In this document: one piece after another, positions 48,441-49,658 of the stretch | How positions within the stretch are numbered: position 1 is the stretch's first letter | How the letters are laid out: every line of letters begins with the position of its first letter | NCBI GenBank assembly: GCA_021732415.1 | Contig: JAKFVC010000077.1 | Location: forward strand, 1-64,000 | Direction of reading: 5' to 3' | Length of the DNA: 64,000 nucleotides | Source of the DNA: Planctomycetaceae bacterium | GTDB taxonomy: Bacteria; Planctomycetota; Planctomycetia; Planctomycetales; Planctomycetaceae | The notes under the pieces: model-generated | The model's database searches: none | Told to the model about the DNA's origin: nothing | What the model saw: only the letters and a program-made list of their open reading frames with translations | Program-made: the position numbers and the translations under genes

Positions 48441-48468
48441 TTGACGTCGCGATTCTTTGACCTACATA
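48441..48468 (+). promoter_or_regulatory. Probable promoter of the riboswitch-prepilin transcript
   Basis: TTGACG (48441-48446), a 16-base spacer and TACATA (48463-48468) resemble a sigma-70 promoter. Transcription would start near 48475, inside the small palindrome GTAACGTCAGTTAC (48472-48485), which could be an operator. The aptamer begins about 60 bases further on. Confidence 0.45.
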
Positions 48469-48533
48469 TTGGTAACGTCAGTTACGACTTTTCGGAACGA
48501 GTTAGGTCCTCTGCATTTGCACAACTGAGGGCT

Positions 48534-48616
48534 CGACAAGGGCAAACCGGTCGTGAGGCCGCGACGCAAAGCCATGAGTCTTAGATATCAAAGATCGTCA
48601 GGCTGCCGAAAGCTGT
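48534..48616 (+). ncRNA. Cyclic di-GMP-I riboswitch (GEMM-I)
   Basis: The aptamer core matches the GEMM-I consensus. AGGGCAAACC is followed by a helix closed by a GTGA tetraloop of the GNRA type (CGGTC-GTGA-GGCCG). Then come GCGACGCAAAGCC and a second hairpin (GCCATGAGTCTT pairing with AAGATCGTCAGGC), ending in GGCTGCCG. The GNRA loop, the invariant GACGCAAAGCC strand and two stems with well-formed pairing are all present. It lies in the 5' leader of the prepilin gene at 48805, in the same orientation. GEMM-I RNAs bind c-di-GMP and control motility, pilus and surface genes in many bacteria. Whether ligand binding raises or lowers expression is not evident from the sequence. Confidence 0.9.
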
Positions 48617-48627
48617 TAATCGACGCG

Positions 48628-48718
48628 TTAGTTACGCCTGTGCCAATATCCGCTGTCTGTTGAGACCGCCGGCACACTGATTTGCGACGTAATCAGTCCC
48701 GCGTAACTAAGCCGGTGG
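48628..48718 (+). promoter_or_regulatory. Putative expression platform of the c-di-GMP riboswitch
   Basis: Downstream of the aptamer three pairings are nested: TTAGTTACGC (48628-48637) with GCGTAACTAA (48701-48710), CCGCCGGC (48667-48674) with GCCGGTGG (48711-48718), and the hairpin ACTGATT...AATCAGT (48677-48697). The first two cannot form at the same time as a simple stack, so they may be alternative states. There is no T-run, so a classical terminator is unlikely. How it acts is inferred. Confidence 0.45.
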
Positions 48719-48804
48719 ATTTGGGGGGGTCCCGAACTCCGGTTGCGTCGAGTTGTTCCACACCGTGCATCCTCAGGGAAGCGCAAATTCAGGAAGGCAA
48801 AGCA

Positions 48805-49266
48805 ATGATTCAGAAGAACGAAACTGTGTCGAATTCGTTGGTGGGCAAGGCTCGTCGAGGATTTACGCTGGTCGAATTGGCCGTCGTAATCGTGATCATC
48901 GGCGTGTTGGCCGCGTTCGGCGTGCCCCGGTTCATCAAGTCAGTCGAACGTTCGAAAGCCGCAGAAGCGTTCTCTTACGCCGCCGCTGTCCGCTCAGCTC
49001 AGGAACGGTACCACTCGCGTGAAGGTACCTACGCCACTGCCGTGACCGATCTGGACATCAAGTTCTCGGTGCCCAAATATTTCACGGTCGGCACGATTGC
49101 CGCTGGCACGACCAGTTCGTTGGAAGATTCCTGGTCGTTGACGTTCACTCGTACCGGGGCTTCAGCCGGTTACGGTGAATACACCATCACCTTCACCGAA
49201 GATGGTTACGACAAGGACAACAGCACGATCAACGCAATTCCCGACATCAACCCGCTCCAGACGTAA
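48805..49266 (+). CDS. Type IV pilin-like prepilin protein
   Basis: The 153-residue product has the prepilin leader and helix KARRGFTLVELAVVIVIIG, with a prepilin peptidase site after RRG, the methylated Phe and the conserved Glu at position 5. The globular C-terminal domain (AVRSAQERYHSREGTYATAV, LEDSWSLTFTRTGASAGYG) resembles the small major-pilin or GspG-type group and lacks the DUF1559 domain so common in planctomycetes. AGGAAGG lies seven bases upstream of the ATG. The leader carries a c-di-GMP-I riboswitch and the gene has its own terminator, so it is a single-gene unit with no pilus assembly genes beside it. The assembled fibre or pseudopilus is unknown. Confidence 0.93.
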   Translation: MIQKNETVSNSLVGKARRGFTLVELAVVIVIIGVLAAFGVPRFIKSVERSKAAEAFSYAAAVRSAQERYHSREGTYATAVTDLDIKFSVPKYFTVGTIAAGTTSSLEDSWSLTFTRTGASAGYGEYTITFTEDGYDKDNSTINAIPDINPLQT

Positions 49267-49313: not shown

Positions 49314-49346
49314 CAACGGGCGGCCAGATCTTCTGACCGCCCGTTG
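49314..49346 (+). terminator. Terminator of the prepilin gene
   Basis: A 15-bp stem (CAACGGGCGGCCAGA with TCTGACCGCCCGTTG, one mismatch) is followed by TTTCATTCTTT, 47 bases after the prepilin stop. Confidence 0.88.
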
Positions 49347-49385: not shown

Positions 49386-49511
49386 GGGAGGGCGAGGCTC
49401 CCGCCGAGCCTAATACGAGCTTTAGCTCGGCGTCCGCCGGAGGCATCGCACGGGCCTCCGGCGGACGCCGACCTCCGGTCGTATTAGGCTCGGCGGGAGC
49501 CTCGCCCTCCC
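49386..49511. repeat. 126-bp palindromic repeat (family A), copy 5
   Basis: Same arms and inner palindrome as 7860-7986. It lies between the prepilin terminator and the start of the sugar dehydrogenase gene. Confidence 0.95.
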
Positions 49512-49658
49512 AACATACCATACTCACACTATCCCCTCCGACACACTGGCGACTCTCCGCAATCATGTCATAGAATGCCACGATTCTGTCCGCCCCCATT
49601 CGAACTCCAGCGGAACAAGTTCGACGGACATGTCTCCCCACACTCACCTGAGGAATCT

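Follow-up and report, generated by a model that had tools for sequence, protein, structure and literature searches.

The Prepilin Gene and Its Leader

The stretch of Planctomycetaceae DNA analysed here (the window, 64,000 nt) carries a gene for a type IV-like prepilin behind a leader of roughly 330 nt, and the features of this region are collected in Table 1. A sequence-only reading had described the gene as a one-gene unit with its own promoter-like site and terminator. Locally, the gene is such a unit, and the block containing the promoter-like site is kept in all five homologous leaders compared here, covering both paralogues of the gene (two leaders of the window type, A, and three of a paralogous locus, B). 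The terminator held up as a strong hairpin, though one with a weak T-tract and missing from the list of the consensus scan.

The folding energy of the leader as a whole is ordinary (z −0.14), the signal being confined to the aptamer and to a two-hairpin element, H1/H2, that follows it. Beyond the pilin gene there is a GC-rich inverted repeat (window 49392–49515, GGGAGGCGAGGCTCCCGCCGAGCCTAATACGA... and its complement), and related repeats coding for GEAPAEP occur in the translations of several ORFs of the window.

Table 1. Features of the prepilin gene and its leader, in window coordinates.
Feature	Position	Strand	Basis
Promoter-like site, TTGACG ... CATATT	48441..48470	+	Consensus scan; inside block AATTTGAC...TTTGACCTAxATATT
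UUUCGG, candidate upstream switching strand, complementary to aptamer 3′ strand CCGAAA (48606–48611)	48490..48495	+	Invariance; RNAalifold pairing
Candidate P0 hairpin, 3′ arm overlapping the 5′ strand of aptamer P1	48501..48537	+	5′ arm has invariant GUCCU
c-di-GMP-I (GEMM-I) riboswitch aptamer	48532..48611	+	Covariance-model matches; best-conserved leader segment; G20 = 48541, A47 = 48568, C92 = 48606 (Vc2 numbering, as we take it)
H1, long stem (48626–48639 with 48697–48712) with inner hairpins	48626..48712	+	Covariation; folding z
H2, second hairpin of the platform	48715..48741	+	Covariation; folding z
Shine-Dalgarno (SD) CAGGAAGG	48790..48797	+	CAGGAA invariant in five leaders
Type IV-like prepilin, 153 aa, cleavage motif RRG/FTLVE	48805..49266	+	PF07963, TIGR02532 and PF00114 above cut-off
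Terminator-like hairpin	about 49314..49346	+	−25.5 kcal/mol, z −3.5; weak T-tract, absent from consensus scan list

A Complete c-di-GMP-I Aptamer

The reading had also claimed a complete GEMM-I aptamer in the leader, and the RF01051 covariance-model search, set beforehand as the refutation test of that claim, scored 64.5 bits against a gathering cut-off of 35 bits (E = 9.1e-12 in the 9.9 Mb genome). The match to the c-di-GMP-I clan is full-length, at window 48532–48611 on the + strand. The related model RF03167 scored 63.4 bits (cut-off 59 bits), with E = 1.2e-12 in the 64 kb window and 7e-15 in the leader only. Neither family gave any match in 14 control genomes, the aptamer is the sole element of the 64 kb window above any Rfam cut-off, and no other Rfam family matched the leader, even at an E-value of 10.

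Every element claimed for the aptamer was seen on the + strand. The segments AGGGCAAACC (48539–48548) and GACGCAAAGCC (48563–48573) both lie within it on that strand, P2 is capped by a GUGA loop of the GNRA type (48553–48556) that is predicted to dock into P3, and P3, for which at least ten pairs had been proposed, has about 11–12. The window copy has one mismatch in P2. In the alignment of homologues, 96.5% of cells in P1/P2/P3 are paired (22–39% in slid versions), with changes on both sides at three pairs. Across the five leaders, 70% of the aptamer columns are invariant, compared to 35% of those 5′ and 28% of those 3′ of it. The window element is confirmed as a complete c-di-GMP-I (GEMM-I) riboswitch aptamer. 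It shares with the Vc2 type of RF01051 the P1/P2/P3 layout, the GNRA-capped P2, residues G20, A47 and C92, and a 5′-leader position ahead of a surface gene; it differs in its upstream complementary strand, the covarying H1/H2, the distance of ~190 nt to the start codon and the duplicated pilin.

The Prepilin, Its Paralogue and the Assembly Machine

The prepilin has a class III leader (G^F), the E5 residue and a hydrophobic helix. It scores 31.6 bits with PF07963 and 24.3 bits with PF00114 (cut-off 22), a threshold that its B paralogue barely passes (22.4 bits). The structure predicted from a 10-sequence alignment (mean pLDDT 77.7) has a long N-terminal helix followed by strands, and the one convincing hit of a fold search with it, though weak as a match to pilins, is PilV, a minor pilin (probability 0.97, E 0.23). 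The class III leader, E5, long N-terminal helix and C-terminal strands are shared with type IV major pilins and GspG (PF00114, TIGR01710), from which the window protein departs by a score under the GspG cut-off and a C-terminal domain that is specific to planctomycetes.

The genome carries exactly two GEMM-I aptamers. The second is on contig C166, ahead of a prepilin 81% identical to that of the window, in an operon encoding a secretin, an A24 prepilin peptidase, a T2SSM_b-like protein, a T2SSE ATPase, T2SSF and several more prepilins. The A and B pilins are 81–82% identical overall and 100% identical over RGFTLVEL...SKAAEAF, and since these mature N-termini are the same, the two pilins probably feed the same assembly machine. 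The sequence-only reading had found no assembly genes near the window gene, and a T2SSE-type ATPase is indeed absent from its 112 kb contig, but with a paralogous unit in a T2SS/T4P-type operon elsewhere the window pilin is not an orphan at the genome level, and "lone" is true only locally.

The prepilin might instead be a GspG-like pseudopilin of a type II secretion machine rather than a surface pilus subunit, a serious possibility although we lean against it. The B operon is T2SS-like in its T2SSM_b protein, in a secretin nearest to GspD and in its H/I/J/K-type prepilins, but the best model for its ATPase is PilB; and the 43.1 bits that the window prepilin scores with the GspG model TIGR01710 fall far under the curated cut-off of 88.85, while Pfam Pilin is above cut-off and the closest sequence relatives in the PDB are type IV major pilins (PilA 8tj2, E 5.7e-9). 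T2SS and T4P are not firmly separable by sequence here, and type IV-like major pilin is the reading used below.

The B-operon ATPase (L033:7693–9438) contains an MshEN domain (PF05157), which was considered as a second c-di-GMP receptor in the B system and rejected. The MshEN c-di-GMP motif consists of two copies of RLGxx(L/V/I)(L/V/I)xxG...LxxxLxxQ (PMC5013675), and in this degenerate version the R and G of RLG are missing from both motifs and the final Q from the second. A plasmid origin was also considered, and no match was found.

Conservation within the Genus

Two further species of the genus also have both loci: the A locus is found in L046 and L045, the B locus in L047/L040 and L048/L041. 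In L045 the dehydrogenase-like gene downstream of the A locus is kept and the leader is lost at a contig end. The comparison of leaders of homologous prepilin genes that had been proposed bore out the arrangement: each of the five complete leaders from the genus has the aptamer immediately before a pilin gene, orthologous or paralogous. In a fourth genome of the genus (G093, 85% complete), both a close pilin and an aptamer are absent. Those relatives that have names belong to the Planctomycetaceae, and one of them is a MAG designated Planctomicrobium piriforme.

Pilins 72–74% identical are found in other genera (L049, G014/L130), and 42–49% identical ones in more distant Planctomycetota (L050–L052), in both cases with no GEMM-I leader. 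G014 does have a weak GEMM-I, but it precedes a Tad-type operon. Because the 72–74% identical pilins outside the genus are without the switch, aptamer and pilin appear to have been joined in this lineage; from the distribution, a type IV-like pilin of this genus would have acquired the riboswitch, and the two would then have been duplicated together.

Two other observations were made in these contigs. An AT-rich, near-perfect inverted repeat of ~80 nt in L045 (3166–3247) gives weak matches to miRNA models on both strands, which are below cut-off and were rejected as miRNAs. Two Acido-Lenti-1 RNAs above cut-off lie on opposite strands, about 100 nt apart, in L041 (3012–3206).

The Leader on Either Side of the Aptamer

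Apart from the aptamer, the five leaders have just three invariant stretches of at least five nucleotides, UUUCGG, GUCCU and the CAGGAA of the SD, so that the first two are the only such runs in the pre-aptamer leader. UUUCGG is complementary to the 3′ strand of the aptamer, CCGAAA, which contains C92, and in the RNAalifold consensus of the five leaders 100% of the cells of this helix are paired. GUCCU, which is complementary in turn to sequence at the 5′ flank of P1, forms part of the candidate P0 hairpin, in which 96% of cells are paired (24–54% for the whole structure when slid) and no pair is changed on both sides. These complementarities suggest an upstream switching strand, and UUUCGG may exclude ligand binding, a proposal that comes from conservation and not covariation, the upstream helix and P0 together having only one compensatory pair in the five leaders. 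In constrained folding, the upstream helix was dominant only in the B leaders, all three of them, and in neither of the A leaders (the window included), and in the window alone the duplex energy of the upstream region with the 3′ strand was not better than that of shuffles. An anti-aptamer strand as a general feature of planctomycetes was rejected, duplex energies being no better than those of shuffles at most loci, and the strand is a candidate for a conserved feature at the genus level only.

An upstream switching strand has a precedent in the GEMM-I riboswitch of Geobacter metallireducens pilM, whose T strand precedes its A strand (PMC9262584). That RNA likewise controls a type IV pilus gene and has its alternative strand upstream of the aptamer 3′ strand; it differs in sensing c-GAMP (A20 type), in controlling an assembly gene rather than a pilin, and in being a short transcriptional ON switch with a terminator (PMC9262584).

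Between the aptamer and the prepilin gene, no intrinsic terminator was recognised by the consensus scan. The space is occupied by H1 and H2 (48626–48741), in which 13 of 28 pairs show changes on both sides. Their covariation of 0.439 exceeds that of shuffled alignments (0.236 ± 0.038, reached in 0 of 500) and of slid versions (at most 0.189), the structure having been derived from the same five sequences that were used for this test. Folded alone, the element beats shuffles in all five leaders (z −1.9, −4.8, −3.7, −2.8 and −5.6). A model of it (R1) matched only the five known leaders when searched against 21 genomes, and it matches no Rfam family. H1/H2 neither overlaps P1 nor sequesters the SD. 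When the aptamer was forced in ViennaRNA, accessibility of the SD was changed hardly and not consistently; an assignment of ON or OFF from such folding was dropped, accessibility being nearly constant. The start codon lies ~190 nt away, compared to roughly 20–50 nt as is usual in the family, and the platform is both unusual and conserved.

The distance from aptamer to gene, the folding of the aptamer without a predicted effect on the SD and the P2 mismatch of the window copy would fit a relict, that is, an aptamer that still binds while the promoter and H1/H2 set the expression of an orphan pilin copy not regulated by c-di-GMP. This is unlikely, as the aptamer, including P1 and the three specificity residues, is the best-conserved part of the leader in both paralogues and in several species. 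A functional switch is the preferred reading.

Ligand Specificity

The ligand-contact residues of the window aptamer are G at 48541, A at 48568 and C at 48606, which we take to be positions 20, 47 and 92 in Vc2 numbering. As all three are canonical, c-di-GMP is the expected ligand. Among the 58 readable planctomycete aptamers, A47 is present in all 58 and G20 in 55, and the genome encodes seven GGDEF domains, including no fewer than four strong ones. A20 goes with selectivity for cGAMP, and the change A20G turns a cGAMP switch into a c-di-GMP switch (PMC6456294); another description makes position 20 a factor in selectivity but not a hard filter (PMC9262584).

The name of the top Rfam match, c-di-GMP-I-GGC (RF03167), is misleading for this RNA. 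The RF03167 consensus has G47 (GACGCGAAG), to which, judging from the model, the second letter of "GGC" would refer, and the window RNA, while scoring above the cut-off, has A47 (GACGCAAAG), so the name is no sign of altered specificity here. Although RF03167 is the best cmscan match in the window and above its cut-off, a GEMM-I variant of altered specificity is very improbable, whether c-di-GMP-I-GGC (position 47, at 48568, is A and not G, and the RF01051 score is equally high) or a GEMM-Ib 3′,3′-cGAMP switch, which is marked by A20 where the window RNA has G20.

GEMM-I across the Planctomycetota

GEMM-I aptamers are present in 100 of 294 sampled genomes of Planctomycetota. At the 27 other loci read from the same family, the aptamer is mostly 20–50 nt before the start codon, and the targets are an operon ending in a TadE/G-like protein at ~20 loci (an assignment checked with Pfam at one locus, PF13400) and a surface protein with a LEPR motif at ~7. 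Among L005–L032, where both kinds of target occur, the TadE/G-like protein is preceded by an uncharacterised RVEEDW protein of ~240 aa, with no Pfam match. In L090, from another family of the same class, a Flp/Fap pilin (PF04964) lies downstream of GEMM-I.

In other families, a FliA/WhiG-type sigma factor was recognised by reading 20–165 nt 3′ of GEMM-I at 10 of the 30 best-scoring loci sampled (L065, L072, L075, L079, L080, L083, L084, L086, L087 and L091); TIGR02479 was above cut-off in all four proteins tested, and Pfam sigma-70 regions were found in five. This suggests that c-di-GMP may directly control a motility sigma factor in these families, and no report of such an arrangement was found among open-licence papers. 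Genomes of family f44 (G196, G216, G266, G295, G310, G335, G356, G385, G394 and G410) have at least 14 GEMM-I aptamers each among the matches listed, several of them close together. The survey as a whole suggests that GEMM-I recurs across the phylum as a regulator of genes for attachment and motility.

The proposal of GEMM-I control over a planctomycete prepilin stands for aptamer, host and target, but GEMM-I is common throughout the phylum, and the genes that it precedes are for the most part other surface or motility genes. No report of a planctomycete c-di-GMP riboswitch on a pilin was found among open-licence papers.

Proposed Mechanism and Significance

The explanation that best joins these results, and that we hold to be likely, is that the c-di-GMP-I riboswitch in the window leader controls a type IV-like major-pilin gene. 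As cellular c-di-GMP rises, the aptamer would bind it, P1 would form and C92 (48606) would become occupied. P1 formation would exclude the alternative fold of UUUCGG (48490–48495) with CCGAAA (48606–48611), if the upstream strand has the role proposed for it, and the two-hairpin region downstream would pass the change on to expression of the single prepilin gene. The window pilin is a distant second copy of the riboswitch–pilin unit, its sister being part of a T2SS/T4P-type operon. By analogy with pili and attachment, ON control is slightly favoured over OFF. Direct control of a type IV major-pilin gene by a c-di-GMP riboswitch is shared with pilA1 (Cdi-2-4) of Clostridioides difficile, which differs in its class II aptamer, its phylum and its action as a read-through ON switch (PMC6200980).

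The riboswitch class and its position before a pilin gene are known; the host lineage and the duplicated arrangement are new. More tentatively, the upstream strand and the ~115 nt two-hairpin element, duplicated with the pilin, could form a GEMM-I platform architecture not described before, through which two dispersed major pilins of one machine might both answer to c-di-GMP as a common signal, perhaps each with its own threshold.

Planctomycetes alternate between motile and attached cells, and the regulation of their surface fibres is largely open. In the genome studied, c-di-GMP probably controls a type IV-like surface fibre. Two things take the locus beyond routine annotation: a platform that is conserved and unexplained, and a duplication with synteny in three species. 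With a canonical c-di-GMP riboswitch ahead of each of the duplicated pilin genes, a link from c-di-GMP to the pilus becomes directly testable.
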